NCBI RefSeq assembly: GCF_015694735.1
Contig: NZ_JADQDP010000002.1
Location: forward strand, 1,302,001 to 1,366,000
Direction of reading: 5' to 3'
From: Hymenobacter properus
GTDB taxonomy: Bacteria > Bacteroidota > Bacteroidia > Cytophagales > Hymenobacteraceae
Length of the DNA: 64,000 nt
The translations under genes and the position numbers were made by a program. Below the pieces are notes generated by a model. That model searched no databases and was not told the origin of the DNA. It saw only the letters and a program-made list of their open reading frames with translations. Shown here piece after piece: positions 9,430-62,509 of the stretch (its first letter is position 1; every line of letters begins with the position of its first letter).

Positions 9430-9729
9430 ATGAAACGCAAAATGCTTTCCGTGCTCTCGGGCGCACTTTTGTGCTCGTCGCTCACCGTATTCAGCGCCTG
9501 CACGGCATCCGAAAACGCCGATTCCTCCGGCAGCACCACGCCCCGCACCACCGGCGGCACCACGTCGGCCAGCGACATTAACGGCACACCGGCCGGCAGC
9601 GCCAGCCCCCGCGGCACTACCACCGATGGCACTACGTCGGGTACCACCACAACCGGTACCACCACGTCGGGTACTACCACGTCCGGTACCACCACCTCAG
9701 GCACCACTACGTCGGGTTCTACTACCTGA
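9430..9729 (+). CDS. Small lipoprotein with Thr/Gly/Ser repeats
   Basis: This 99-residue protein has a lipoprotein signal (MKRKMLSVLSGALLCSSLTV, lipid-attachment Cys24 in FSAC). The mature part is almost entirely Thr, Ser and Gly and ends in about seven near-perfect GTTTS units encoded by 15-base tandem repeats with varied codons. It should be an extended, unstructured surface or periplasmic tail; no function can be assigned. An upstream in-frame start at 9370 is rejected because it would bury the signal peptide. A terminator follows 20 bases after the stop. Confidence 0.7.
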   Translation: MKRKMLSVLSGALLCSSLTVFSACTASENADSSGSTTPRTTGGTTSASDINGTPAGSASPRGTTTDGTTSGTTTTGTTTSGTTTSGTTTSGTTTSGSTT

Positions 9730-9800: not shown

Positions 9801-10952
9801 CTAGGCCCACTGCTTCAGGTACTGAAACACCTCCGGGTGCGTGAGCAAGCCGCCGTGGTGCTGCTGGCTGAACACGGCCGTGCGCACGTTGGCCCCGGTG
9901 GGCAGGGCCGCCTCGTCGCCAAAGGTAGCGCGGCCGCGGGCGCTGTTGTGGCCCACCAGCCCGTCGCCGAAATACTCGCGCAGGGCCGCTGGGCGGGTGG
10001 TGCGCAGCCAGGAGCCCATCAAAATGTGATACTGCACACCCGGCAGCGGCGGCACCGGCGTGCGCGGCGGCGTGAGGTCGTTGGCGTGGGCGTCCTGCCA
10101 GTCCTCATCCACCAAAATGGAGTAGCGCAAGTCCTTGATGCCGTTGCTGCGCTGGTTGAGGGCCTTGCTCAGAAATCGCGTCGGAAACAGGTTGATGCGC
10201 TCCAGCAGTCGCGCCGTGAGGTGCGAGTTCTGCTCCAGCCACGAGCCGTCGTTGGGCGTGCCGATGAGAAACACCGAGCGCAGGTGGGCCAGCCAGGGCG
10301 CTTTTTCAATGGGCAATGAGTAATTATCAATTCGCAATTTGGGAGTTGCGGCAGCCCCGGTCTGAGGCATTGTTAATTGCTCATTGCCCATTGCGAATTG
10401 CCCGTAAAATCCCGCGCTCCGGATGATGAGCCCGCCCATGCTGTGGCCCACCAGCACCAGTTCGCCGATGGCGTCGGGGTAGGTAGTTACCAGCTCGGAA
10501 AGGAGGCGGCTGAGCTCGCGGCCGTTTTCGGACAGGTGCAGGCCGGTGTTGTAGCGCAGGTAAAGGGCGCGGCAATGGGTTTCTTCGGCCAGGCGGGGGC
10601 CGTAGCGGCGGCTGCCGGGCGCATCCTGAAAGCCGGTTTGCCAGATGAGTTCGTCGCCCATCAGGCCGTGCACGAACACCACCGTTTTCTGCAGGGGCTC
10701 AGTCAGGCGCAGGTCGGCCACGGCCACGTCGTGCCCGCCGCGCCGGAAGCTCATCCGAATGGCCCGCTTGTCGAAGCGCGCGGCCAGCTGGTCGCCGAGG
10801 GCGCCGTTGAGCACGGGCAGGAAAAAATGCTGGTGCGCCTGGCCTGAGCGCACCACGTAGCTGGCCCCGCGCACCGGCAGCAGGGCCGCCCGCCCCACGG
10901 CCCCAAGGGCCCGGCGGAAGCGGGAAGGCTGGTTGGAATCGGAGGCGGCCAT
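9801..10952 (-). CDS. Alpha/beta hydrolase (lipase-like) carrying an in-frame palindromic insertion
   Basis: This is a 383-residue hydrolase with the lipase/esterase core: oxyanion strand VVFVHGLMGDE (91-101), nucleophile elbow GHSMGG with Ser171, strand VFLIGTPNDGS (227-237), and a C-terminal FSQQHHGGLLTHP that probably supplies the catalytic histidine. The start at 10952 (MAASDSNQ) is chosen because the longer frame upstream runs across the divergent lipoprotein gene. Residues about 184-217, between the elbow helix and the next core strand, are encoded by a palindromic repeat (10307-10393) and have unrelated composition (MGNEQLTM, then LRIDNYSLPIE). The frame stays open, so the enzyme may tolerate the loop, but activity is unproven. 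No signal peptide is visible. Confidence 0.82.
   Translation of the reverse strand: MAASDSNQPSRFRRALGAVGRAALLPVRGASYVVRSGQAHQHFFLPVLNGALGDQLAARFDKRAIRMSFRRGGHDVAVADLRLTEPLQKTVVFVHGLMGDELIWQTGFQDAPGSRRYGPRLAEETHCRALYLRYNTGLHLSENGRELSRLLSELVTTYPDAIGELVLVGHSMGGLIIRSAGFYGQFAMGNEQLTMPQTGAAATPKLRIDNYSLPIEKAPWLAHLRSVFLIGTPNDGSWLEQNSHLTARLLERINLFPTRFLSKALNQRSNGIKDLRYSILVDEDWQDAHANDLTPPRTPVPPLPGVQYHILMGSWLRTTRPAALREYFGDGLVGHNSARGRATFGDEAALPTGANVRTAVFSQQHHGGLLTHPEVFQYLKQWA
10307..10393. repeat. Palindromic element M inserted in a coding sequence
   Basis: A 25-base arm at 10307-10331 is the inverse of 10369-10393 with two mismatches, around a 37-base centre. The arms contain CAATGGGCAATGAG and share TGAGCA[AG]TTAACAAT with element L at 13689-13780. 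It lies wholly inside the lipase-like gene and adds about 30 codons without a stop. Confidence 0.85.
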
Positions 10953-12842: not shown

Positions 12843-12866
12843 AGAGGTGCGGATAAACGGCGCGGT

Positions 12867-12960
12867 GCGGGCTGCCGGCTTTGGGCCGGCTGTCCGCTCG
12901 TTGTTAACGCAAAGTTGCTCTGACAGAGAGCGGACAGCCGGCCCAAAGCCGGCAGCCCGC
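12867..12960. repeat. Perfect 33-bp inverted repeat (element K)
   Basis: Arms at 12867-12899 and 12928-12960 are exact inverse copies around a 28-base loop. Each arm holds a smaller palindrome, GCCGGC-TTTGG-GCCGGC. It begins 24 bases after the metallo-hydrolase stop. No T run follows, so it is not a canonical terminator. Confidence 0.9.
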
Positions 12961-12990
12961 CACAGCGCAGGCTCTAGCATCCTTCAAATA

Positions 12991-13688: not shown

Positions 13689-13780
13689 CAGTTGACAGTT
13701 ATCAGTGAGCAGTTAACAATAAGCGGCCAGTAGTGTTGATGGCGGCTTATAGTTAACTGCTCACTGATAACTGTCAATTG
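13689..13780. repeat. Palindromic element L, 39-nt arms
   Basis: Arms 13689-13727 and 13742-13780 are inverse copies with three mismatches around a 14-base loop. The arms contain ACAGTTATCAGTGAGCAG and share a TGAGCA[AG]TTAACAAT core with element M. It lies 12 bases after the M28 peptidase stop and seven before the next start. Confidence 0.9.
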
Positions 13781-17384: not shown

Positions 17385-17503
17385 AAAACAGACCGTCATG
17401 CTGAGCGCAGTCGAAGCATCTCTACCGCAATAGTAAACCCTGTCGATTGGATTACTTGCGCGGTAGAGATGCTTCGGCTGCGCTCAGCATGACGGTCTGT
17501 TTT
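17385..17503. repeat. Palindromic repeat A, family 1a
   Basis: Arms 17385-17428 and 17460-17503 (44 nt) match inversely with one mismatch. The arm core is GTCATGCTGAGCGCAG then GAAGCATCTCTACCGC. It starts 18 bases after the stop of the DPP IV-like gene and touches the start codon of the next S9 gene. Confidence 0.95.
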
Positions 17504-17521
17504 CTACTCGAACTTCCGCCT

Positions 17522-19928: not shown

Positions 19929-21755
19929 CTACCGCTGGCGGGCGGCCCAGGCGTCCAGGCGGCGCTCCAGCACAGCCAGGGGCATCGAGCCCCCGGCCAG
20001 AATCTCGTCGTGGAAAGCGCGCAGGTCGAACTTCGGGCCCAGCTGCTTTTCGTAGCGGGCGCGAAGTTCACGCAATTTCAGCCCGCCGGTTTTGTAGCTC
20101 AGCGCCTGGCCGGGCCACGACATGTAGCGCTCGATTTCGGCCGTGGCGCCCTGCTCGCTGATGGGCTCATTGTCCATCATGTACTTGATGGCTTCCTCGC
20201 GGCTCATGCCCTTGGCGTGCATGCCCACGTCCACCACCAGCCGGACGGCGCGGTGCATGTCGTCGCCCAGCGCCCCGAGTTTCTGGTAGGGGTCGGTGTA
20301 GAGGCCCAGCTCGGGCCCCAGGCTCTCGCAGTACAGCGCCCAACCCTCGCTAAAGGCCGAGTAGCTGGCAAAGCGCCGGAATTTGGGCTGCGTGGTGTTT
20401 TCCTGCTGCAGCGACAGCTGGTAGTGGTGGCCGGGAATGGCCTCGTGCAGAAACAGCGACTCCATGCCCGAGGTCACGTTGAACTTGGTGGCATCGAGGA
20501 TGGGCACGTAAAAAATGCCCGGCCTCGAGCCGTCGGGCGTGCCCCGGTTGTATTCGGCCGACGCCGTGGCGGCCCGAAAGGCCTCGGTTTGCCGAATCTC
20601 AAACGGCGACTTCGGCGTGCGCCCAAACAGCTTGGGCAGGTGGGGCGTGATGCGCGCCTGAATGGCCCGGAAGGCGTTCAGCACGTCGTCCGGCGTTTTG
20701 TAGGGCGTGAATTTGGGGTCCGAGTTCAGGTAATTGAAGAAAGCCGGCAAGTCGCCCTCATAGCCCACCTGCTTTTTTACGGCCTCCATCTCGGCCCGGA
20801 TGCGCTTCACTTCGGCCAGCCCGGTTTGGTAAATGGCGTCGGGCGTGCGGTCGGTGGTCGTCATCTGGCGCACGGCAAAGCGGTACATCTCGGTCCCGCC
20901 GGGCACGGCCCCGATGCCGGTGCTGCTGCGGGCTGCGGGCAGATACTCGGTTTGCAGGAAGTCGGCCAGCTTGCGGTAGGTCGGCACCAGGACGGTGGCA
21001 ATGGCTTGCTGGTAAGCAGCCGTTAGGCGGGTTTTGTCGGCTTCCGAGAAGCTGGCGGGCAGCCGCGTAATCGGACCGTAGAACAAGCTCTTGGCCGGGT
21101 CTGTCACCACCTGCGCCTGCAACTGGGGCACCATTTTCAGCACCAGCACCTTGGGCAACACCACGCCGGCCTTCATGCCGCGCCGGAAGTTGCCGATGGC
21201 CGAGTCGGCCCACACCGGAAACTTATCCACGCGCGCCAGCCAGTCGTCGTAGTCCTTCACGGTTTTGAAGGGTTGCGAACCGGTGCCCGCGCCCAGCTGC
21301 ACGAGGTTGTTGGGTAGGGAATAAAACTGGGCGAAGGGCATCATCCAGGTATTCAGCTTCAACCCGTCGAGCCGGGTCTTCATCTCGTACTCGAAGATGT
21401 CGTAGTTGGCCTGGTCTTCGGCCGACAGCTTGGTCCGGTCAAATTTTTGCAGTGAAATCAGGTACTGCTGATAAACCTGCTGCAACTGCTGCCGGAAGGC
21501 ACGGGTCTCGTAGTTGGGCAGTTGGTCGTTGTAGCGGTAGTCGCCCTGCGCCGTAGCCGACAGCGGATACAGCTTGGCTTGGTCTTCCCAATACGCCGCA
21601 AACAGCGCCGCCAGCGGAGCCGAGGCGGTGGTCGTGACGGCTTTAGCGCCGACTGTTTTGGCCGCCGCGGGGGCTTTTTGCGCCAAGGCCCCGGGCAGAG
21701 GGCAGGTGGTCAGAAGCGTGCCGGCAGCCAGCGTTTGCAATACAAGTTTTCGCAT
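19929..21755 (-). CDS. Secreted DUF885 zincin-like peptidase, paralogue 1
   Basis: This 608-residue protein has a signal peptide ending near LPGALAQ. It matches the DUF885 family over nearly its whole length. The putative zinc site HEAIPGHH is at 437-444 (His437, Glu438, His443/His444), with a likely third ligand in SEGWALYCE (Glu470). Other family features are YWEDQAKLYPLSATAQGDYRYND (55-77) and YNRGTPDGSRPGIFYVP. DUF885 members are thought to be metallopeptidases on structural grounds; substrates are not established. Two paralogues lie downstream in the block (at 23664 and 25709), interrupted by a broken S12 hydrolase gene. This copy and the 23664 copy align without net gaps after the signal peptide. 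Confidence 0.88.
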   Translation of the reverse strand: MRKLVLQTLAAGTLLTTCPLPGALAQKAPAAAKTVGAKAVTTTASAPLAALFAAYWEDQAKLYPLSATAQGDYRYNDQLPNYETRAFRQQLQQVYQQYLISLQKFDRTKLSAEDQANYDIFEYEMKTRLDGLKLNTWMMPFAQFYSLPNNLVQLGAGTGSQPFKTVKDYDDWLARVDKFPVWADSAIGNFRRGMKAGVVLPKVLVLKMVPQLQAQVVTDPAKSLFYGPITRLPASFSEADKTRLTAAYQQAIATVLVPTYRKLADFLQTEYLPAARSSTGIGAVPGGTEMYRFAVRQMTTTDRTPDAIYQTGLAEVKRIRAEMEAVKKQVGYEGDLPAFFNYLNSDPKFTPYKTPDDVLNAFRAIQARITPHLPKLFGRTPKSPFEIRQTEAFRAATASAEYNRGTPDGSRPGIFYVPILDATKFNVTSGMESLFLHEAIPGHHYQLSLQQENTTQPKFRRFASYSAFSEGWALYCESLGPELGLYTDPYQKLGALGDDMHRAVRLVVDVGMHAKGMSREEAIKYMMDNEPISEQGATAEIERYMSWPGQALSYKTGGLKLRELRARYEKQLGPKFDLRAFHDEILAGGSMPLAVLERRLDAWAARQR

Positions 21756-21821
21756 GAAAGTCTACTTTATAGGCCCGTTTATCAGCCCAAGATACCGAAA
21801 GCGTGGCGCTGGCAATCGAAG

Positions 21822-21850
21822 TAAAAAAAAAGCCCCGTGGCCGGGGCTTT
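21822..21850 (-). terminator. Intrinsic terminator (minus strand)
   Basis: The AAAGCCCC/GGGGCTTT stem has a run of nine A on its left flank, which is a T run in minus-strand RNA. It lies downstream of the broken S12 hydrolase gene and before the DUF885 gene at 21755. Confidence 0.8.
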
Positions 21851-21914
21851 CCTCTATCATTGGCACGGCCGGCAAAGACGCTGCTTGCGCTTCCCGGTTG
21901 CTTGGGGCGGGGTT

Positions 21915-23558
21915 TTACTGGGCGGCGCCCGCTGTGGACTCAGTTACACGTTTGAAATCCAGGTCCTGAAAGTCGTAGCTAAAATCAGTTGCCGGCGAAA
22001 TCGGCTTCATTTTCAGACCCGAGGCGCGGCCCTGGTCGTCGAGCGTAAAGGTGGCGAAGGCATCGGCGTTGATGCTGCGGAGCTTCCAGCGTACCACGCA
22101 GGTGCTGCCGCGGTAGGGCAGTACCTGGCCCACGAGGCGCGGCGCACGCACGGCGCGCAGCCAAAGCTGCGGACCTTGCTGGTACACATTCACATCGCCC
22201 AGCCAAGCGTCGTGGTAGCGGCCGATGTAGGCACTGTAGTCGGCTTTCTTCGGGGCGGCCCTCTGGGCTAGAGCTACCTGCTTCCAGGCAGCGGCGGTGG
22301 CCTTATCCGATTCGGCCGCACTGGCTTGCTTGTAGCCGAGCATGGTTTGCACCCGGTCCTGGCCCGTCACGCCCAAGTAATGGTCCATAATTGAGGTGGT
22401 AATGGCCTGAAAGGCTAGGCCTTCCTCCTGGTTGGTAAGCACGATGATACCCAAGTGCAAGTCGGGCACCAGCGTCACCTTGGTCACCATGCCAACCGTC
22501 CCGCCGGTGTGCGATACCTGCTTGAACCCTCCCACATCAGTCAGGTCCCAGCCCAAACCGTAGGCCGCGAAGTGGGTGTTGTAAAACGTCGGCCCGGGAG
22601 ATAGGTGCTTGAGCGTCTGGGGCGACCACAGCTCCCACTGCGTTGCGGGCTTCAGCAGCGGGGCGGGCGCGCCGGGGCCGCCCAGCAGCATCAGGGCCCA
22701 CTGGCTCAGGTCGGCTACGCTGCTGTAGATGCCGCCGGCGCTGAACATGGCCCCCGTTGGGTCAGCTGTTGAGCCCAAATGCCGCCGTACTACCCGCACC
22801 TTGCCGTCCTCCGAGGCATGCGCATCCGCGACATTGGTGGGGTCAGGCAGGCGGGAAAAGCTCGTGGCACTGCGCCGCATGCCCAAGGGCTGCAGCAGGC
22901 GGGTTTCCACGAAAGAGGTCCAAGGCTGCTTCGCTATTCGGGCTACTACCTCACCTGCTACTATATACAAGGTGTTATCATAGGCATACTCGCTGCGAAA
23001 CGACGACGCTGGCTTGAAATAGCGCAGGTTGTGAATTAAGTCGTGAACGGTGAAATTGGTTGAATCCGGATACCGCATCAGGTCGCCCGCGCCTAGGCCC
23101 AGGCCGCTGCGGTGGCAGAGCAGGTCGCGCACCGTGAACTCGGCCGTCACGTAGGGGTCGTACATCTTGAACTCGGGGATGTAATCCGTCACCTTGTCGT
23201 CCCAGCGCAGCTTGCCCTCGTCCACCAGCAGCCCCAGCGCGGCCGTGGTGAAGGCCTTGGTATTGGAGGCGATGCCCACCAGCGTGTTGGCGTCCATCGG
23301 CGCCTTGGTTTTCAGGGAGCTCACGCCGTAGCCCTTGCTCATCACCACCTTGCCGTCCTTCACCACAGCCACGGCCATGCCCGGCACGTCGAAGCCCTAG
23401 AGGGTGCGGGCCACCGCGGCGTCCACGGCCGCCACGTCGAGCGGGGCCGTTACGGGCGGGGCCATTTGGGCACGTGTGGCGGTGGGAAGCACTGCCAGGG
23501 CAATGCCGAGGCCCAGCACAGACGCAAATCGGCCAAGTGAAGTAGAGAATAAAACCAT
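21915..23558 (-). pseudogene. S12 beta-lactamase-like serine hydrolase, split by an in-frame amber codon
   Basis: From ATG at 23558 the frame encodes a signal peptide (VLGLGIALAVLPTATRA) and TAPLDVAAVDAAVARTL. It then meets TAG at 23399-23397 (codon 54) and continues in the same frame with GFDVPGMAVAVVKDGKVVMSKGYG to the end, about 547 codons in all. The S12 (class C) signatures are intact: SNTKAF (SxxK), YAYDN (YxN) and HTGG. A C-terminal DUF3471-like domain (AYIGRYHDAWLGDVNVY onward) completes the family architecture. Relatives have a sense codon at the TAG, and AAG, CAG or GAG to TAG is one substitution. It is therefore a single-step nonsense pseudogene or a sequencing error. Re-initiation at GTG 23387 would give an unexported protein. 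Confidence 0.85.
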
Positions 23559-23663
23559 TCGGAAGAAAATTTGGGTTAAAACAAGATTGGCCTGCCAAGT
23601 TAAGCCAGGTAATTTGATTTCAACTCCCATAATTTCCAAAGCCCTTGCGAGCCAACGGCCCGG

Positions 23664-25454
23664 TTACCGTTGCCGGCCGGCCCAGGCGTCCATGCGCCTT
23701 TCCAGAATGGCCAGAGGCATGGCGCCGCCCGCCAGAATCTCGTCGTGGAAGGCGCGCAGGTTGAATTTTGCCCCCAGCTGCTTCTCGTAGCGGGCGCGCA
23801 GCTCGCTCATTTTCAGGGCGCCTACTTTGTAGGCCAACGCCTGGCCCGGCAGGGCCAGGTAGCGTTCCACCTCGGCAGTGGCCGCGGCCTCGCTAATGGG
23901 CTCGTTAGCCATGAGGTAGGCAATGGCCTGCTCGGGCGTCAGGCCCTTGGCGTGCAGGCCCACGTCTACCACCAGGCGCAGGGCGCGGTGCATTTCGTCG
24001 CCCAAAGCGCCCATGCGCTGGTAGGGGTCGGCATACAGGCCCAGTTCGCGGCCCAGGCTCTCGCAGTACAAGCCCCAGCCCTCGCTGAACGCGGGGTACA
24101 CCGCAAAGCGGCGGAACTTGGGCAAGCTGGTGTTTTCCTGCTGCAAGGAAATCTGGTAGTGGTGCCCGGGGATGGCCTCGTGCAGAAACAGCGACTCCAT
24201 GCCCGAGGTCACGTTGAACTTGGAGGCGTCGGCAATGGGCACGTAGAAAATGCCCGGCCGCGAGCCGTCAGGCGCCCCGCGGTTGTACTCGGCCACGGCC
24301 GAGGCTTCGCGGAACTTCTCGGTTTCGCGAATCTCAAACGGCGAGCGGGGCACTCGCCCAAACAGCCGGGCCAGGTTAGGCGCCACGCGGGCCTGGATGC
24401 CGCGGAAGGCATTGAGCACCTGCTCGGGCGTTTGGTAGGGGCTGAACCTAGGGTTGCTGTCGAGGTAGTTAAAAAAGCCCGTCAGCGAGCCCCGGTAGCC
24501 CACGCGCTTCCGAATGGCCTCCATCTCGGCCCGGATGCGCTTCACCTCGGCCAGCCCGGTTTGGTAGATGGCATCGGGCGTGCGGTCGGTGGTGGTCATC
24601 AGGCGCACGTCGTAGCGGTACATGTCGGCGCCGCCGGGCACGTCGCTCAGGCCGGTGCTGCTCCTGGTCTGGGGCAGGTATTCGTTTTGCAGGAAATCGG
24701 CCAGCCGGCGGTAGGTGGGCACCAAATCGGTGGCAATGGCTTGCTGGTAGGCCGCGGCCAGTCGCACCTTGTCGGCGTCGGGAAAGCCGGGGGGAAAGTG
24801 CAGCGCCGGCCCGTAAAAAGGGCTGCGAATAACGTCGGCGGTTACCTGGGCCTGCAGCTGGGGCACCATGCGTTGCACCACCACGCGCGGCAGCACCACG
24901 GCCGCTTTCATGCCCAGCCGGAAGTTGGCCACGGCCGAATCGGCCCACGCCGGAAAGCGGCCCACCCGCGCCAGCCAGTTGTCGTAGTCGCGCACCGTGC
25001 GAAAAGGCTGGGCCCCGGTGCCCGTGCCCAGCTGCGCCAGCGTATTGGGCACGCTGAAAAACGGGTCGAGCGGCATCATCCAGGTGTTCAGCTTCAGCCC
25101 GTCGAGGCGGGTGCGCATTTCGTATTGAAAGATGTCGTAGCTGAGCTTGTCCTCGGCCGGGAGGCGGGCCCGGTCAATGTTCAGCAGGTCGTTGAGGTAG
25201 CGGCGGTAGAGGCGCTGCTGCTGTTGCCGGAAGGCCTGCGTCTGGTCGTTGGGCAGGCGGTCGTTGTAGCGGTTGTCGCCCTGGGCCATGGCCGCCAGCG
25301 GAAACAGCCGGGCGCGGTCTTCCCAGTAAGTGGTAAACAAATTGGCCAGCAGCACCGACGCTGCGCTGGCCCGGCTGGCCGGGGGCGCCTGGGCCCGGGC
25401 CGGCCGCCCGAGCAGCCCCAGCGCCGCCAGCAAAACGAAAATCAACTTCCGCAT
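23664..25454 (-). CDS. Secreted DUF885 zincin-like peptidase, paralogue 2
   Basis: This 596-residue protein has a signal peptide (MRKLIFVLLAALGLLGRPARA). It aligns end to end with the DUF885 protein at 19929-21755 without net insertions: the zinc-binding HEAIPGHH is near 425-432, followed by QISLQQENTSLPKFRRFA and SEGWGLYCESLG. The start at 25454 is chosen because the signal peptide begins there; the 14 residues of the longer in-frame reading (MGQINVDCQL) are upstream sequence. The substrate is unknown. Genes on both sides encode extracytoplasmic peptidases. A minus-strand terminator and palindrome B separate it from the third paralogue, so it probably has its own promoter. Confidence 0.87.
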   Translation of the reverse strand: MRKLIFVLLAALGLLGRPARAQAPPASRASAASVLLANLFTTYWEDRARLFPLAAMAQGDNRYNDRLPNDQTQAFRQQQQRLYRRYLNDLLNIDRARLPAEDKLSYDIFQYEMRTRLDGLKLNTWMMPLDPFFSVPNTLAQLGTGTGAQPFRTVRDYDNWLARVGRFPAWADSAVANFRLGMKAAVVLPRVVVQRMVPQLQAQVTADVIRSPFYGPALHFPPGFPDADKVRLAAAYQQAIATDLVPTYRRLADFLQNEYLPQTRSSTGLSDVPGGADMYRYDVRLMTTTDRTPDAIYQTGLAEVKRIRAEMEAIRKRVGYRGSLTGFFNYLDSNPRFSPYQTPEQVLNAFRGIQARVAPNLARLFGRVPRSPFEIRETEKFREASAVAEYNRGAPDGSRPGIFYVPIADASKFNVTSGMESLFLHEAIPGHHYQISLQQENTSLPKFRRFAVYPAFSEGWGLYCESLGRELGLYADPYQRMGALGDEMHRALRLVVDVGLHAKGLTPEQAIAYLMANEPISEAAATAEVERYLALPGQALAYKVGALKMSELRARYEKQLGAKFNLRAFHDEILAGGAMPLAILERRMDAWAGRQR

Positions 25455-25526
25455 CAAAAATCGATTAAGCTGGCAATCTACGTTGATTTGGCCCACCGGC
25501 CTACGCTTGCCCCGCTTTTGTACAGC

Positions 25527-25564
25527 AAAAGCCCCGCCCGGATTGGTTCCGGGGCGGGGTTTTG
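25527..25564 (-). terminator. Intrinsic terminator between DUF885 paralogues
   Basis: AAAAGCCCCGCCC pairs with GGGGCGGGGTTTT around an 11-base loop. It lies downstream of paralogue 3 and palindrome B on the minus strand. Confidence 0.8.
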
Positions 25565-25601
25565 GAGTGGGGTAGGAGCAGGGACTCCGTTAGATATTAG
25601 C

Positions 25602-25693
25602 ACGTCATGCTGAGCGCAGCCGAAGCATCTCTACCGCAGGAGTAATTATCTACTTCAGCACGCGACATGCTTCGGCTGCGCTCAGCATGACGT
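25602..25693. repeat. Palindromic repeat B, family 1a
   Basis: Arms 25602-25628 and 25667-25693 are perfect 27-nt inverse copies (core GTCATGCTGAGCGCAGCC). It lies 15 bases after the stop of DUF885 paralogue 3. This is the only copy of the family with a canonical terminator further downstream. Confidence 0.95.
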
Positions 25694-25708
25694 TCCTTTT
25701 CTCACTTC

Positions 25709-27520
25709 TCACTGCTGCTTCGCTGCCCAGGCGTCCATCTTGGTTTCAAGCACGCTCAGCGGCATCACGCCGTCTTTCAGCAGTTCGTCGTGGAAGTTGC
25801 TGAGGGAGAATTTGCTGCCTAGCTGCTTTTCGTAGCGGGCGCGCAGCTCCTGAATTTTCAGCTGGCCGATTTTGTAGGCCAGCGCCTGGCCCGGAATGGC
25901 CATGTAGCGCTCGATGGCGGCCGTGTCGTTTTCGCGGTTGTCGGGTGTGTTATCGAGCATGTAGTCAATGGCTTGCTCGCGGGTCATCTGGCCGGTGTGC
26001 AGGCCGGTGTCCACCACCAGGCGCACGGCGCGCAGCATCTCGTCGCTTAGGGCGCCGATGTATTGGTAGGGGTCTTTGTAGAGGCCCAACTCCTTGCCCA
26101 GGCTTTCGCAGTAGAGGGCCCAGCCTTCGGTCATGGCGCCGTAGCCGGCAAACTGGCGAAACTTGGGCAGGCTGGTGTTTTCCTGCTGCAAGGAAATCTG
26201 GTAGTGGTGCCCGGGGATGGCCTCGTGCAGAAACAGCGATTCCATGCCCTGCGTCACGTTGTACTCGGCGGGCTTGGGCAGGGGCACGTAGAAAATGCCC
26301 GGCCGCGAGCCGTCCGGCGAGCCCTGGTTGTACTCGGCCGAAGCCGACGCCTCCCGGAACGCCTCGGTGCGCCGAATCTCAAACGGCGTTTTAGGCGTGC
26401 GGCCAAACATCTTTTTCAGGTTTGGGTCGATGGTTTCCTGAATCTTGCGGAAACCTGCCAGTACCTCCTCGGCCGTCTTAAAGGGCATGGCCTTGGGGTT
26501 GGTTTTCAGGCTCTCGAAGAACTGCCGCAGCGTGCCCTTGAAGACCAGTTCGGTTTTCATGCGCTCCATCTCGGCGCGCAGGCGAGCCACCTCGCGCAGC
26601 CCCAGCTCGTGGATTTCGGCCGGAGTTTTCGCCGTGGTGGTCCAGTAGCTCACGTAGTAGCGGTAGATTTCCGGCCCGCCCGGCACGGCGTTGATGCCGC
26701 TGGTGGCGCGCGACTTGGGCAGGTACTCGTTGGCCAGGAAGTCCCCCATTTTCTTGTAAGTCGGCACTACCTGGGTCTGAATGGCCTTCTTGTATGCCTC
26801 GGTCAGGCGCTGCTTATCAGCGTCGGAAAAGTCTTTCGGGAAGTTGTTGATGGGGCTGTAAAACAGCGACTTGGTAGGGTCCGTCACCTGCATGTCCTTG
26901 GCGCGCATCTGGGGCAGCATCTTCACCACCAGCGCCCGGGGCAGCACCACGCCGGCCTTCATGCCGCGCCGGAAGTTGCCGATGGCCGAGTCGGCCCACA
27001 CCGTGAAGCCCTGCACGCGGCCCAGCCAGTTGTCGTAGTCCTTCACCGTCTTAAACGGCTGGTTGCCCTGCCCCGAGCCGTACTGCCCCATGCTGATGGG
27101 CAGCCCCCAAAACTGCTGAAACGGAATCATCCAGGTGTTCAGCTTCAGCCCCTCCACTCGCTGCTTGAGGTCATACTGGAATATGTCGTAGCTGATTTTA
27201 TCGTTCTCATCCAGCTTAGCGCGGTCGAACTGCCCCAGCCGCGTTAGGTAATCCTGGTAAAACGTTCGCAGCGTGTCGCGAAACGCCTGCGTCTGGTCGT
27301 TGGGCAGCAGGTTGTTGTAGCGGTTGTCGCCCTGCGCTGTGGCCGAAAGCGGGTCGAGGCGCGACTGCCGCTCCCAGAAGCTGGCAAACAGCCCGTTGAG
27401 GCCTTTGGTGGAGTCAGCGGCCGTGCCATTGCCGGCGGATGCCGTTTCGGAGGTTTTGGTTTGGTTGCAGGCCGTTGTGAGCGCCACGGCAACGAGGCCG
27501 GCGAGGGCAATTTTTTTCAT
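25709..27520 (-). CDS. DUF885 zincin-like lipoprotein peptidase, paralogue 3
   Basis: This 603-residue protein differs from the other two copies by a lipoprotein signal (LVAVALTTAC, lipid-attachment Cys18) and a Ser/Thr-rich linker, so it is membrane-anchored rather than soluble. The DUF885 core is complete: FWERQSRLDPLSATAQGDNRYN, YNQGSPDGSRPGIFYVP, HEAIPGHH at about 432-439 and EGWALYCESLGKELGLY. A two-residue insertion (QMRAKDMQ region) distinguishes it from the other copies. It is likely a zinc metallopeptidase of unknown specificity. Divergence among the three copies is moderate, which suggests old duplication and possible division of substrates or location. Confidence 0.87.
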   Translation of the reverse strand: MKKIALAGLVAVALTTACNQTKTSETASAGNGTAADSTKGLNGLFASFWERQSRLDPLSATAQGDNRYNNLLPNDQTQAFRDTLRTFYQDYLTRLGQFDRAKLDENDKISYDIFQYDLKQRVEGLKLNTWMIPFQQFWGLPISMGQYGSGQGNQPFKTVKDYDNWLGRVQGFTVWADSAIGNFRRGMKAGVVLPRALVVKMLPQMRAKDMQVTDPTKSLFYSPINNFPKDFSDADKQRLTEAYKKAIQTQVVPTYKKMGDFLANEYLPKSRATSGINAVPGGPEIYRYYVSYWTTTAKTPAEIHELGLREVARLRAEMERMKTELVFKGTLRQFFESLKTNPKAMPFKTAEEVLAGFRKIQETIDPNLKKMFGRTPKTPFEIRRTEAFREASASAEYNQGSPDGSRPGIFYVPLPKPAEYNVTQGMESLFLHEAIPGHHYQISLQQENTSLPKFRQFAGYGAMTEGWALYCESLGKELGLYKDPYQYIGALSDEMLRAVRLVVDTGLHTGQMTREQAIDYMLDNTPDNRENDTAAIERYMAIPGQALAYKIGQLKIQELRARYEKQLGSKFSLSNFHDELLKDGVMPLSVLETKMDAWAAKQQ

Positions 27521-30652: not shown

Positions 30653-31015
30653 AAGTTGGTCAGTAGTTTCCAAATGAGCCCGCAAGTTACTATTGTTGAA
30701 TTAAAAATGAAACTAAACAAAAGTCAACCTCGTAGTGGCACGCGCTGGTAAGCCCGACAGTAAGCTCATAAAAAGGGATTCCAGCCATAGCAATATTGAT
30801 GGGCGAGGGGACTTAGCTCATGTATGTTAGTTAGATTGTTTTAATATTGTTTACAAATTATTAATTTAGAAGCCATTAGTAGAAGTCGTTGATTATCCCT
30901 GAAGGTTGTGCAAAATTCCCATTAAAAGAGATTGTGGCGTAGCGGGAATAAATTGCGGCTTGACTTTGTGTTTCGGTCAAGCCACTCGTTTGTTCATCTT
31001 CCTTACGCTACTGCT
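30653..31015. other. AT-rich divergent intergenic region
   Basis: This is the largest non-coding stretch in the window and much more AT-rich than its surroundings. It separates the divergent T9SS protein and the GH3/beta-lactamase gene and must hold both promoters. TGACTTTG at 30961-30968 differs by one base from TAnnTTTG and would serve the plus-strand gene if translation starts at 31016. No palindromic repeat, RNA gene or small ORF of conviction is present. Confidence 0.5.
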
Positions 31016-34000
31016 TTGTCCTTTCCCACCCGCCTTGTTTCACTCTTATTAGTTGTCTGTTCCTTTGGGGCTCAGGCGCAACGCTCGAAGTCTTCCAAGC
31101 CCAATTCTCAGCCGGCGGTTAAAACGCTACGGAAAAACCCAGTGGCCAGAAGGTTTCCGGCTGCAAAAGCGCAGCTGCAGCCGAGTGTCGCCAAAGCCCC
31201 TGCTTTCACTCGCTACTTGCACTCGCCCTGGGTCGATAGCGTGATGCGCGTACTTACGCCCGACCAGCGCGCCGCGCAGCTGTTCATGGTGGCCGCGTAT
31301 TCCAACCGCAAGCGCATCGACGAAGACTCGATTTCGACGCTTATTCAGCAGTATGGCATCGGCGGGCTCATTTTCTTTCAGGGCGGGCCGGTGCGGCAGT
31401 CCAAGCTGCTGAATCGCTACCAAAGCCAAAGCCGCGTGCCGCTGCTAGTGGCGCTGGATGGTGAATGGGGCGTGGGCATGCGCTTGGATAGCGTGGTGAA
31501 ATTCCCCTATCAAATGAGCTTGGGCGGCGAAACCGACACAACCCTGCTTTACGACATGGGCCGCGAGGTGGCTTACCAGTTCAAACGCCTGGGCATGCAC
31601 GTCAACTTTGCTCCGGTGGTGGACGTTAACAACAACCCCGCCAACCCCGTCATCGGCTTTCGGAGCTGGGGCGAGAACCCGGCGGCCGTGGCCCGCGACG
31701 GCCGCCAGTACATGCGCGGCATGCAGGACGCCGGCATCCTGGCCGTAGCCAAACATTTCCCCGGCCACGGCGACGTGGACGCCGACTCGCACCTGGCCCT
31801 TCCTACGGTGCGCGTCGACCGCCGCCGGCTCGATACGCTGGAACTGCCGCCCTTCCGCAGCCTGATGGCCGGCGGCTTGGGCGGCATGATGGTGGCCCAC
31901 CTCAACGTGCCCGCCCTGGACACGGTGAGCGGCCCGAGCACCTTGTCGAAGCCTATCATCACGAGCTTGCTGCGCGATGAGATGGGCTTTAAGGGGTTGA
32001 TTTTTACCGATGCCATGAACATGAAGGGCGTCATCAGCAAGTTTCCGCCCGGCGAGGCCGATGTGCGCGCCCTCATCGCCGGCAACGACATCCTGGAGTT
32101 CAGCAAGAACATTCCGTTGGCTCTGCGCATGGTGCGGGCGGCTGTGGACAGCGGCCGCCTCACCCAGCAGGAAATTGACGTGCACTGCCGCCGTGTGCTG
32201 GCCCTCAAGCAGTGGGCCGGCCTGAACCGCTACCGTCCCATCAAGCTTCAGAATCTTTACCAGGACCTCAACGCGCCGCATGCGCAATACCTCAGCCACC
32301 GCCTCACCGAGCTGAGCATCACGCTGCTGCGTAACCAAAAGAACCTTTTGCCGCTGCAGCGCCTCGATACCCTGCGCGTGGCCACGCTGGTGCTGGGCAG
32401 CACCAGCCCTGACACTACTGACTTCCAGAAAGCCGTGGCCGACTACGCGCCCACGGCCCACTTCCGCGCCGCCGCCACGCCCACGCTCGACGAGCTGGCC
32501 CAGCTGCGCACGGCGCTCAAGCCCTACAACCTTATTCTGGTGTCGCTGCAAAACCTGGGCCGCCTGCCCGCCACCAGCTTCGGCATCACGCCCGAAACCA
32601 ACCTGCTGCTGCGCGAGCTAGTGAACCAGAAGCAAACGCTGGTGCTCAGCGTGTTTGGCTCGGCCTACGCCGTGGCCAAGGTGCGCGACTTGGACCGTGC
32701 TGCCGCCGTGGTGCTGGCTTATCAGGAAAGCCCTAATGCCCAGAACCTGGCCGCGCAGGCCATTTTTGGTGGCATCGGGGCCAGCGGCCGGCTGCCCGTG
32801 ACGGTGAGCGACCGGTACCCGCGCGGCTTTGGGCTGCGCACGGCCCCGGGCTTCCGCCTGCGCTATGCCAACCCCGAAGACGTTAGCATGGACCCACGCC
32901 TCGAAGCCCGCGTGGACAGCCTCGTGGGCCGGGCGCTGGCGGCCCAGGCGTTTCCGGGCGGGCAGGTGCTCATCGCCCGACGCGGCACCGTGGTGCTGCG
33001 CAAAAGCTACGGCAACCAGACGTATGCGGGCGAGGGGATAGGGGATAAGGAAAAGGTGATAGGGAATAAGGGTAACAAAGTCGTATCCCCTATACCCTCT
33101 TCCTTATCACTTACCGTGCCGCGCCCGGTGCGCAACGATGACCTTTACGACCTGGCCTCGATGACCAAGCTGATGGCTGCCACGCCGGCGCTGCTCAAGC
33201 TGCAAGGCGCGGGCAAATTCAGCCCCGATAGCACGATGGGCAACTACTTCGGCTTTTTGCGCGGTACCAACAAGGCCGATTTGAAGATGCGCGACGTGCT
33301 GGCTCACCAGGCCCGGCTCAAGGCATGGATTCCTTTCTGGCAGGAGCTGCGCAAAAAGAACGGCGAAATGCGTCGCCGCTACTTCCGGGCCGATTCGTCG
33401 GCGCGGTTTCCGCTGCCGGTGGCGGCCGGGCTGTGGGCGCGCAAGAATTTGCCGGCCCGCATCTACAAGGAAATAGGGGAGTCGCCGCTGAATGAGAAGC
33501 CGGGCTACGTGTATTCCGACTTGTCGTTTATTCTCTACCCCGAGCTGGTGAAGGCTCGGACGGGGCAGACCTTCGACGCGTATTTGCAGCAGCAGGTGTA
33601 CCGGCCGCTGGGTGCCACCACGTTGGGCTTCCGGCCCACCAACCGCTTTCCGCTTGCCCGCATTGTGCCCACGGAAGTGGATTCGGCCTTCCGCCGCCAA
33701 CTATTGCACGGCACCGTGCACGACGAAGGCGCGGCCCTGCTCGGCGGCCTCTCGGGCCACGCCGGCCTGTTTGGCGACGCCAACGACGTAGCCAAGCTGG
33801 CCCAGACCTACGCCTGGGGCGGCCGCTACGGCGGCCAGCAGCTCTTCGATAAAACCATTATGGACGAGTGGACGCGCTGCCAGTTTTGCCCGGACAACCG
33901 CCGCGCCCTGGCGTTCGACCGCCCGGCGGCCAACCCCATGGTGAACTCAGCCAAGTCGGCCTCGCAACGCAGCTACGGGCACACGGGCTTCACGGGCACC

Positions 34001-34141
34001 TACTTCTGGGTGGAGCCGGAGAAGGACTTGGTGGTGATTCTGCTCACCAACCGGGTGCACCCCACGCGGCGCAACAACAAGCTGACGGAGCTGAGCGTGC
34101 GCAGCTCCTTGCTGCAGCTGGCCATCGAGGCGGCGCGGTAG
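31016..34141 (+). CDS. Secreted GH3 (NagZ-like) glycosidase fused to a beta-lactamase-type hydrolase
   Basis: This protein of about 1041 residues joins two periplasmic enzymes. The GH3 N-terminal domain (about 75-420) has the NagZ-type dyad loop KHFPGHGDVDADSHLALP (from Lys246) and the nucleophile segment FTDAMNMKG (Asp332), indicating beta-N-acetylhexosaminidase activity on murein sugars. A GH3 C-terminal-like segment follows. From about 625 comes an S12 beta-lactamase domain with SMTK (Ser715-Lys718), YSD (Tyr833) and HTG (His989). The start is uncertain: no ATG exists, and TTG at 31016 gives a clean signal peptide (SFPTRLVSLLLVVCSFGAQA), whereas the longest frame starts at TTG 30932. Such fusions are common in Bacteroidota. 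Residues about 675-699 are encoded by an inserted palindrome. Confidence 0.88.
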   Translation: MSFPTRLVSLLLVVCSFGAQAQRSKSSKPNSQPAVKTLRKNPVARRFPAAKAQLQPSVAKAPAFTRYLHSPWVDSVMRVLTPDQRAAQLFMVAAYSNRKRIDEDSISTLIQQYGIGGLIFFQGGPVRQSKLLNRYQSQSRVPLLVALDGEWGVGMRLDSVVKFPYQMSLGGETDTTLLYDMGREVAYQFKRLGMHVNFAPVVDVNNNPANPVIGFRSWGENPAAVARDGRQYMRGMQDAGILAVAKHFPGHGDVDADSHLALPTVRVDRRRLDTLELPPFRSLMAGGLGGMMVAHLNVPALDTVSGPSTLSKPIITSLLRDEMGFKGLIFTDAMNMKGVISKFPPGEADVRALIAGNDILEFSKNIPLALRMVRAAVDSGRLTQQEIDVHCRRVLALKQWAGLNRYRPIKLQNLYQDLNAPHAQYLSHRLTELSITLLRNQKNLLPLQRLDTLRVATLVLGSTSPDTTDFQKAVADYAPTAHFRAAATPTLDELAQLRTALKPYNLILVSLQNLGRLPATSFGITPETNLLLRELVNQKQTLVLSVFGSAYAVAKVRDLDRAAAVVLAYQESPNAQNLAAQAIFGGIGASGRLPVTVSDRYPRGFGLRTAPGFRLRYANPEDVSMDPRLEARVDSLVGRALAAQAFPGGQVLIARRGTVVLRKSYGNQTYAGEGIGDKEKVIGNKGNKVVSPIPSSLSLTVPRPVRNDDLYDLASMTKLMAATPALLKLQGAGKFSPDSTMGNYFGFLRGTNKADLKMRDVLAHQARLKAWIPFWQELRKKNGEMRRRYFRADSSARFPLPVAAGLWARKNLPARIYKEIGESPLNEKPGYVYSDLSFILYPELVKARTGQTFDAYLQQQVYRPLGATTLGFRPTNRFPLARIVPTEVDSAFRRQLLHGTVHDEGAALLGGLSGHAGLFGDANDVAKLAQTYAWGGRYGGQQLFDKTIMDEWTRCQFCPDNRRALAFDRPAANPMVNSAKSASQRSYGHTGFTGTYFWVEPEKDLVVILLTNRVHPTRRNNKLTELSVRSSLLQLAIEAAR
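33040..33111. repeat. Palindromic element N inserted in a coding sequence
   Basis: Arm 33040-33068 is an imperfect inverse copy of 33084-33111 around a 15-base loop; the arms contain GGGGATAAGGAA. It encodes GIGDKEKVIGNKGNKVVS-type sequence at the start of the beta-lactamase domain, 16 codons before the SxxK serine, and keeps the frame open. Confidence 0.82.
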
Positions 34142-37515: not shown

Positions 37516-37555
37516 GCCGTTGAATTGCTTCTGAATGAGCAAAGAACGTTATCGC

Positions 37556-37657
37556 CTGTCATCCTGAGCGCAGCGAAGGACCTTCTCACGCCCAGAGCAA
37601 TATTTACTACAAGCTGTTCAAGCGTGAGAAGGTCCTTCGCTACGCTCAGGATGACAG
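37556..37657. repeat. Palindromic repeat C, family 1b
   Basis: Arms 37556-37590 and 37623-37657 (35 nt) match inversely with one mismatch; the core is CTGTCATCCTGAGCGCAGCG then GAAGGACCTTCTCACG. It starts nine bases after the NagX-like stop. Confidence 0.95.
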
Positions 37658-37666
37658 ACGACAAAC

Positions 37667-38848: not shown

Positions 38849-38882
38849 GGGTGGGAATTGAGAGAAAACGATGCTAAAGAAC

Positions 38883-38967
38883 GTCATGCCGAGCGCAGCC
38901 GAGGCATCTCGCCTCTGAAAACTAATTACTGCTGCATGCAAGATGCCTCGGCTGCGCTCGGCATGAC
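38883..38967. repeat. Palindromic repeat D, family 1a variant
   Basis: Arms 38883-38909 and 38941-38967 are perfect 27-nt inverse copies. The core reads GTCATGCCGAGCGCAGCC, where both arms carry compensatory changes relative to copies A and B. It begins eight bases after the anmK stop. Confidence 0.95.
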
Positions 38968-38975
38968 CGTTCTGC

Positions 38976-40253: not shown

Positions 40254-40364
40254 AAGAACGTCATGCTGAGCTTGTCGAAGCATCTTTACCGCGCAACGCA
40301 ATCCAATCGACAGGATTTACTACTGCGGCAGAGATGCTTCGGCTACGCTCAGCATGACGTTCTT
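40254..40364. repeat. Palindromic repeat E, family 1a
   Basis: Arms 40254-40292 and 40325-40364 are imperfect inverse copies (GTCATGCTGAGC core, with several mismatches in the left arm). It lies 12 bases after the susD-like stop and 66 before the anmK start. Confidence 0.9.
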
Positions 40365-40376
40365 CCAGAACCTACC

Positions 40377-44893: not shown

Positions 44894-44947
44894 ACAGAAA
44901 AAGGGTTAGTGGTGGGAAAATGGTGGTTTTGTATCCGTAGAAATTGC

Positions 44948-45051
44948 CTGTCATCCTGAGCGCAGCGAAGGACCTTTTCATGTAAGGGCGATTTGCAGCA
45001 ACTCAGACGAAGCCACCGTGAGAAGGTCCTTCGCTGCGCTCAGGATGACAG
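44948..45051. repeat. Palindromic repeat F, family 1b
   Basis: Arms 44948-44980 and 45019-45051 (33 nt) match inversely with one mismatch. It starts six bases after the stop of the nagB fusion and ends 54 bases before the susC start. Confidence 0.95.
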
Positions 45052-45057
45052 AGAGGG

Positions 45058-52075: not shown

Positions 52076-52099
52076 CAGGCTGTCTTGCTGTGCGCTAGT

Positions 52100-52198
52100 C
52101 TGTCATCCTGAGCGCAGCGAAGGACCTTCTCACCGAAGAACTATTTGCAGTGACCATTGCATGCGTGATAAGGTCCTTCGCTGCGCTCAGGATGACAG
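52100..52198. repeat. Palindromic repeat G, family 1b
   Basis: Arms 52100-52133 and 52165-52198 (34 nt) are inverse copies with one mismatch. It lies 24 bases after the SusD_2 stop and 44 before the next lipoprotein start. Confidence 0.95.
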
Positions 52199-52242
52199 AT
52201 GGAGCCAACCCCATCCATCCCCCGATTTTAACAACCCGTTAT

Positions 52243-56264: not shown

Positions 56265-56328
56265 CAACAAAAACTTAGCAACGGCAATAGAAGCCGCAAA
56301 TTACGGCATGGGGCCGCGAGGCACCGTT

Positions 56329-56429
56329 CATTTCTGTCATCCTGAGCGCAGCGAAGGACCTTCTCACGCTTGAACGCCAATTGTTCTAACGTGAAAAGGT
56401 CCTTCGCTGCGCTCAGGATGACAGAAATG
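56329..56429. repeat. Palindromic repeat H, family 1b
   Basis: Arms 56329-56368 and 56390-56429 (40 nt) match inversely with one mismatch around a 21-base centre. It starts only four bases after the stop of the gene at 56434, the closest spacing seen. Confidence 0.95.
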
Positions 56430-56433
56430 TATA

Positions 56434-62365: not shown

Positions 62366-62390
62366 GGGCGGGAAAGCGAATAGTAAAAGA

Positions 62391-62488
62391 AGAACGTCAT
62401 GCTGAGCGGAGCCCAAGCATCTCTACCGCAATAGTAAATGAATACTTGCGCAGTAGAGATGCTTCGGCTGCGCTCAGCATGACGTTCT
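62391..62488. repeat. Palindromic repeat J, family 1a
   Basis: Arms 62391-62426 and 62453-62488 (36 nt) are inverse copies with two mismatches. It starts 21 bases after the hldD stop and ends 25 bases before the start of the flavoprotein gene. Confidence 0.95.
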
Positions 62489-62509
62489 GCATAGCTTGGC
62501 ATCAATATG

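Follow-up and report, generated by a model that had tools for sequence, protein, structure and literature searches.

A gene for an alpha/beta-hydrolase in Hymenobacter properus contains a palindrome built of 7-nt units (heptads), and the palindrome is read in frame as part of the enzyme. The gene lies in the window, a stretch of 64,000 nucleotides that was analysed as a whole. Comparison with orthologous genes indicates that the loop carrying the palindrome is a recurrently occupied and quickly rewritten site rather than the product of one insertion. Palindromes that encode protein are known above all from Rickettsia and Wolbachia, whose genomes are reduced. The insert of H. properus is probably a copy of a dispersed family of heptad palindromes. 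Such copies would have entered the loop, and both arms would have been rewritten afterwards, under selection only to keep the frame open and the loop harmless.

A palindrome of 7-nt units in a hydrolase gene

The features of the window and of the compared loci are collected in Table 1. As the earlier, sequence-only reading of this DNA had claimed, 25-nt inverted arms are present within the hydrolase gene. The two arms (10307–10331 and 10369–10393) are 92% complementary and separated by 37 nt. A longer ungapped pairing between 10307–10338 and 10369–10400 covers 32 nt at 75%. The predicted RNA fold of 10300–10405 has −40.3 kcal/mol, compared with −23.75 ± 3.49 for shuffled sequences (z = −4.74), and 0 of 200 shuffles are as stable.

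Table 1. Location of the hydrolase gene, its palindrome, related hairpins, and other palindromes (window positions or locus).
Feature	Position or locus	Strand	Remarks
Alpha/beta-hydrolase (lipase/esterase-like) gene	9801–10952	minus	383 aa; nucleophile elbow GHSMGG
Heptad palindromic element, read in frame	10307–10400	minus	residues 185–216 of the hydrolase
5' arm (gene sense)	10369–10400	minus	CAATTCG CAATGGG CAATGAG CAATTAA CAAT; peptide QFAMGNEQLTM
Stretch between the 25-nt arms	10332–10368	minus	partly continues the 3'-arm heptads
3' arm (gene sense)	10307–10338	minus	reverse complement of heptad units; peptide about LRIDNYSLPIE
Element L, related hairpin	13689–13780	.	CAGTTGA CAGTTAT CAGTGAG CAGTTAA ...; just upstream of flavin-reductase-like start
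Heptad hairpins upstream of flavin-reductase-like genes	13689–13780 (window); L168, L170, L172, L175, L179		
In-frame insert in GH3/beta-lactamase fusion ORF (stop-to-stop 30926–34138)	33032–33120	+	weaker hairpin, GGGATAG-like units
In-frame own-genome hairpin, HrpB-type helicase	L335		
In-frame own-genome hairpin, hybrid histidine kinase	L336		between ATPase and receiver domains
In-frame own-genome hairpin, MurF-alanine racemase fusion	L347		
Copies of the two other palindrome families (GTCATCCTGAGCGCAGCGAAGGACCTT, GTCATGCTGAGCGCAGCCGAAGCATCTC), first set	37537–37664, 44929–45052, 52081–52199, 56315–56430, 57729–57840		
Copies of the two other palindrome families (GTCATCCTGAGCGCAGCGAAGGACCTT, GTCATGCTGAGCGCAGCCGAAGCATCTC), second set	17385–17506, 25591–25700, 38873–38973, 40274–40365, 62386–62489		

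Four matches to the core TGAGCARTTAACAAT are present in the window when up to two mismatches are allowed, against 0.08 expected from shuffling. Two of them are within the hydrolase element and two within element L, so the core proposed earlier as common to both is found twice in each. Both elements are built of 7-nt units, and the shared core is therefore a stretch of such units.

The general form of the unit is [N]A[AG]T[TG]NN. An element consists of three to six units, a spacer of approximately 5–90 nt, and then the reverse complement. In the arms of 33 orthologous loops with significant inverted repeats, identity is 75% at lag 7 and 73% at lag 14, against 22–33% at lags 3–6 and 8–13. The part of the hydrolase genes before the loop has a lag-7 identity of 28%.

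The reading frame stays open through the element. In H. properus (G000 hereafter), the loop is 36 aa long (residues 184–219), compared with 7–10 aa in the shortest orthologues, and approximately 26–29 residues are thus extra. The repeat itself covers residues 185–216. The sequence-only reading had counted about 34 foreign residues in an open frame.

The Pfam profile Abhydrolase_6 matches the product with 30.5 bits (cut-off 26.3), and Foldseek ranks lipases and esterases highest. The palindrome is positioned between the helix after the GHSMGG elbow and the next strand. In the AlphaFold2 model, the mean pLDDT is 72 overall and approximately 40 for residues 191–210. Residues 187–218 are without secondary structure, so that the model shows the insert as a coil of low confidence. 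The insert is likely a floppy exposed loop.

The hydrolase core is under purifying selection. Between G000 and the nearest relative found (G043, locus L006), dN is 0.026 and dS 0.27, with dN/dS of approximately 0.1. For G000 and three other species, dN is 0.041–0.055 and dS 0.33–0.39. Because the core is constrained in this way, the hydrolase gene appears to be functional with the insert in place.

The same loop in orthologous genes

Of 120 genomes of the genus, 113 contain the hydrolase gene and 7 lack it at E ≤ 1e-20. The genus is Hymenobacter, according to the titles of the named orthologue records. With eight genes from a neighbouring genus, the sample contains 121 genes, 120 of which were analysed. 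The gene of G082 (L115) was left out; its coding sequence is spread across two frames in the region of the loop, by either a real break or a sequencing error.

The loop is shorter than 15 aa in 21 of the 120 genes, 15–24 aa in 18, 25–34 aa in 23, 35–44 aa in 35, and at least 45 aa in 23. Inverted repeats with p ≤ 0.01, against 99 dinucleotide shuffles per loop, are seen in 33 of the 81 loops of at least 25 aa and in none of the 39 shorter loops. At least two heptad units on both strands are found in 38 of 120 loops and in 0 of 1471 control windows, which are equal-sized and taken elsewhere within the same hydrolase genes. Heptad units on at least one strand are found in 48 of 120 loops and 34 of 1471 control windows. 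Heptad loops have a GC content of 47%, compared with 73% for loops shorter than 25 aa and 66% for the genes outside the loop.

The palindrome could also be a chance product in an ordinary low-complexity loop. The variable loop length and 33 long loops without a called repeat are compatible with this, but the 1471 control windows without a case, the 200 shuffles of which none is as stable, and the recurrence in dozens of species reduce its probability to almost nothing.

The sequence-only reading expected a single insertion, lacking from close homologues. This expectation is not supported, as close homologues do not lack an insert. The gene of G043, whose protein is 90% identical to that of G000, contains a different heptad hairpin at this position, and dozens of species have a heptad hairpin at this loop.

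Six of the eight outgroup genes have loops shorter than 25 aa. The two others are G201, with a long loop and heptad units on one strand, and G196, with a 27-aa loop without units. The same residues, which in distant genera would have spoken against an insertion, are seen in none of the genes from this one other genus. The short loop is probably the ancestral state. Long loops (at least 25 aa) without called heptads are found in 33 of the 120 orthologues. Their lag-7 identity is 0.33, against 0.28–0.35 at other lags, and they may be decayed copies or something else.

The units at the loop are of different flavours. The flavour is CAAT in G000 and GAGTTAA in G043, and the two are sisters on the gene tree (SH-aLRT 90). 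Three other species (G115, G064, and G095) have GAATGAA. The sisters G078 and G080 (SH-aLRT 98) have AAATTAA and CAGTGAG, respectively. There are at least 17 flavour changes among the heptad-bearing rows, and at least 22 changes between presence and absence of called heptads, on a quick IQ-TREE tree built with the loop left out and with SH-aLRT support only, for which the tool warns of long branches (44 of the 116 inner branches are starred and 36 are drawn open).

A row of GAGTTAA units has an in-frame stop at every third unit, because 7 and 3 have no common factor. In the open loop of L020, the third unit is AAGTGAA in place of GAGTTAA (frame read by hand). The frame is open in 34 of 51 loop arms, against 21.0 expected, and this excess is attributed to selection on the hydrolase gene. 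Outside the loop, 66 of 117 arms are open against 55.6 expected, two perfect tandem arrays being left out of 119. This latter signal is weak, and no claim is made that unit order adapts the elements themselves to open reading frames.

Coupled arms and the probable origin of the inserts

The identity between the two arms of one element is 0.80, while it is 0.645 for the same arm across species and 0.628 for opposite arms across species, in a sample of 12 elements with five units per side. The greater likeness within than between elements indicates that the arms change together. This bears on the idea of one ancestral insertion followed by ordinary drift, in which the flavours would be accumulated point mutations. 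Drift would explain why spacers and junctions are similar within clades, why the units of G000 and G043 are in the same register, and why flavour labels are clustered on the tree. It is nevertheless improbable. Arms are more alike within an element than the same arm is across species, species whose proteins are 90% identical have different defining bases in almost every unit of the two arms, and loops are short in the outgroup and in many ingroup lineages.

In the same 12 elements, both arms are changed and still pair in 377 site comparisons, against 580 that are paired in one species only. Together with the strong predicted fold, this is the pattern to be expected if selection maintained the hairpin for its structure, in RNA or DNA, as a regulator of the hydrolase gene. 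Such a role is very improbable. The inverted repeat is not significant in 87 of the 120 orthologues, the same family is found in unrelated genes and outside genes, and Rfam contains no fitting family, only microRNA models below threshold.

The spacer seems to behave differently from the arms. In a clade of 17 species, the central 14 residues are positively charged in 15 of 16 loops of at least 25 aa, with a mean of +3.1. Nine loops of this length in the clade bear called heptads, of three flavours between them, and all but one of these loops are basic. In a clade of 35 species, the mean central charge is −1.4 over 33 loops of at least 25 aa. The Mann–Whitney test between the two clades gives p = 1.7e-6, an optimistic value as the species are related. 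The spacer thus seems to be inherited while both arms are replaced, as far as the clade-level charge of related, non-independent species can tell.

The loop flavour tends to follow the genome. Counting the loop's own arms and treating genomes as independent of phylogeny, it is the commonest flavour of the genome in 26 of 47 cases, against 15.7 expected by shuffling (p = 0.0016). Where the commonest flavour has at least 20 matches, the two agree in 19 of 36 genomes (12.0 expected, p = 0.012), and where it has at least 40, in 17 of 31 (10.7 expected, p = 0.012). The outgroup G201 has no counts and is left out. G041, whose units are CAGTTGT, was relabelled by hand from R to C type, and there is no match under either label.

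The favoured history, with dispersed palindromes as founders and later rewriting, can be set out in steps. Founder elements would have entered the hydrolase loop at least once in the ancestor of a 52-species clade, and again in other lineages. Both arms would then have been overwritten together, most likely through recombination or gene conversion with heptad arrays elsewhere in the genome. One arm would next be corrected against the other, with the hairpin as template, and the spacer would be inherited. Selection would demand only an open frame and a harmless loop. It can be speculated further, with somewhat less than an even chance of being right, that the loop represents continuous templated rewriting of a protein. 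The arms would take the flavour of the genome pool and the spacer would pass vertically, with the enzyme kept through much of the history of the genus.

The main rival explanation is repeated transposition. Whole hairpins, moved by a RAYT/IS200-like or other transposase, would enter this tolerant loop repeatedly, taking the place of older copies or arriving after their loss. It would account for a dispersed family of similar copies, for the short, filled, and differently filled states at the hydrolase and GH3/beta-lactamase sites, for the two hairpin flavours upstream of the flavin-reductase-like gene, and for a loop flavour that tracks the genome pool. Against it, the spacer type persists across flavour changes, and no target-site duplication is seen in the few flanks compared by eye. 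In addition, none of the 5 candidates scored in G000 matches Y1_Tnp (PF01797), although 15 of the 19 genomes searched have such a gene. Repeated transposition is accordingly considered unlikely. As a mover of heptad elements, RAYT is not supported for G000, which has no Y1_Tnp match.

The claim that a mobile repeat has become protein sequence holds in so far as a member of a dispersed family is tolerated in frame in a conserved enzyme. Mobility of the family is what we infer; no movement event is seen, and no transposase is tied to it. The Hymenobacter case makes the question of mobility or rewriting directly testable, with many cultured species in which the same sites, in more than one enzyme, are short, filled, or filled again. 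The hydrolase loop also offers a natural collection of inserts at a single position of an enzyme.

Related copies and known palindromic elements

The unit pattern is present in 117 of the 120 genus genomes; a backward control pattern is lower in most heptad-rich genomes but is not zero, and exceeds the pattern in some, such as G098. When the whole element is used as a DNA query against the own genome, only the element itself and one tandem array are recovered, so the family is kept in its unit pattern and not in its letters. In 2.37 Mb (121 loci including the window), 41 heptad hairpins are found, 25 in the hydrolase loop and 16 elsewhere, and one of the 16 is in frame deep within a long gene. 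The reversed-sequence control of this survey gives 16 pairs against 47 unmerged (41 merged), and it is unclean since reversed heptads partly fit the pattern.

Heptad copies are largely outside long genes, while some are in frame in protein genes and tolerated. Among 28 distinct hairpins compared in the own genome, which exclude eight further pattern sites on contigs C4 to C7, four lie in frame within long genes that encode Pfam domains and 24 are without such context. Two other genomes, G070 and G086, likewise have a long HrpB loop. Its inverted-repeat score is 13 in G086, and there is none of note in G070. In the PDB alignment, read by eye, no comparable insert follows LGAL in the HrpB of 6eud, and the alignments for the MurF-racemase and GH3 proteins cover parts outside the insert. 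For the histidine kinase and the MurF fusion, the homologues at hand do not cover both flanks and offer no empty-site comparison.

The insert in the GH3/beta-lactamase fusion has an inverted-repeat score of 13 and a lag-7 identity of 0.51. In G006 its site is occupied by a hairpin of GAAT type, and in G092 there is almost nothing at this position. The gene downstream of element L is, from its sequence, presumably flavin-reductase-like. In the compared loci, 6 of 20 flavin-reductase-like starts have an upstream heptad hairpin (five of C type, one of GAAT type). A search with a NEEL-type peptide gives matches in 24 of 120 genomes, several of them in long stop-free frames, which are candidate coding copies.

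Rickettsia palindromic elements (RPEs) are described as stem-loops of approximately 105–146 bp, both intergenic and in frame in conserved proteins, and the product of an RPE-bearing gmk kept its activity when tested (PMC2229807, available part). Wolbachia palindromic elements are also described as protein-coding (PMC4224334, available part), and the arm identity of Rickettsia elements as lost over time (PMC6649704, available part). Like RPEs, the heptad element is a stable palindrome near the stated size (94 nt here, 54–147 nt in the 41 hairpins), and its family is in frame in several unrelated conserved genes (4 of 28) as well as elsewhere. Unlike RPEs, the Hymenobacter elements consist of tandem 7-nt units in several flavours. 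The host belongs to another phylum than Rickettsia, and the loop is filled in dozens of species, with both arms changing in concert. The parallel drawn with Rickettsia from the sequence is supported: a dispersed repeat is read as part of a conserved enzyme, brings in sequence richer in AT, and is tolerated. By analogy, the element can be considered to work like the coding palindromes known from those bacteria and from Wolbachia, with a different architecture and in a different phylum.

REPs of the GTAG and CGTC super-families are reported, in the available part of PMC3733652, as palindromes within coding regions, with stems of 5–13 bp and a GTAG or CGTC tag. Heptad palindromes share the intragenic position described there. 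Unlike REPs, their arms reach at least 25 nt, and a GTAG or CGTC tag is near the end in only 6 of 41 hairpins. From the features of MITEs, heptad elements have the inverted repeats, and the few flanks compared by eye are without duplication.

Direct repeats of the heptamer TAACTGA are described from Beggiatoaceae, Cyanobacteria, and five Bacteroidetes, with one inverted case and with some repeats in reading frames, mainly towards protein ends (PMC4679880, available part). The 7-nt period is the same, and the reverse complement TCAGTTA overlaps the CAGTTAN units here, although many units do not correspond. Those repeats are described as direct, and the term Hymenobacter is absent from the text of that paper; the Hymenobacter heptads form inverted arms.

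For mitochondria of Nematomorpha, coding palindromes in conserved genes are reported to be gained and lost between species, with some shared sites, and template switching is offered to explain the maintenance of the arms (PMC6649704, available part). These palindromes have perfect arms that encode conserved parts of proteins, and neither heptad units nor a dispersed inserted family is mentioned in the same part of that source. No description of coding heptad palindromes in Hymenobacter was found in the literature searched, where subscription journals are thinly covered.

The window contains other repeats as well. The GTCATCCTGAGCGCAGCGAAGGACCTT and GTCATGCTGAGCGCAGCCGAAGCATCTC types are two other palindrome families with approximately five copies each in the window. 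A long GC-rich palindrome at 12859–12968 has 46-nt arms that are 89% complementary, with sub-threshold matches to Rfam microRNA models. At 9617–9725, 15-nt tandem repeats encode the TTSGT-type tail of a small lipoprotein-like ORF. Three related stretches within 19930–27352 contain several 300-nt blocks of approximately 70–86% identical DNA and are probably paralogous genes.
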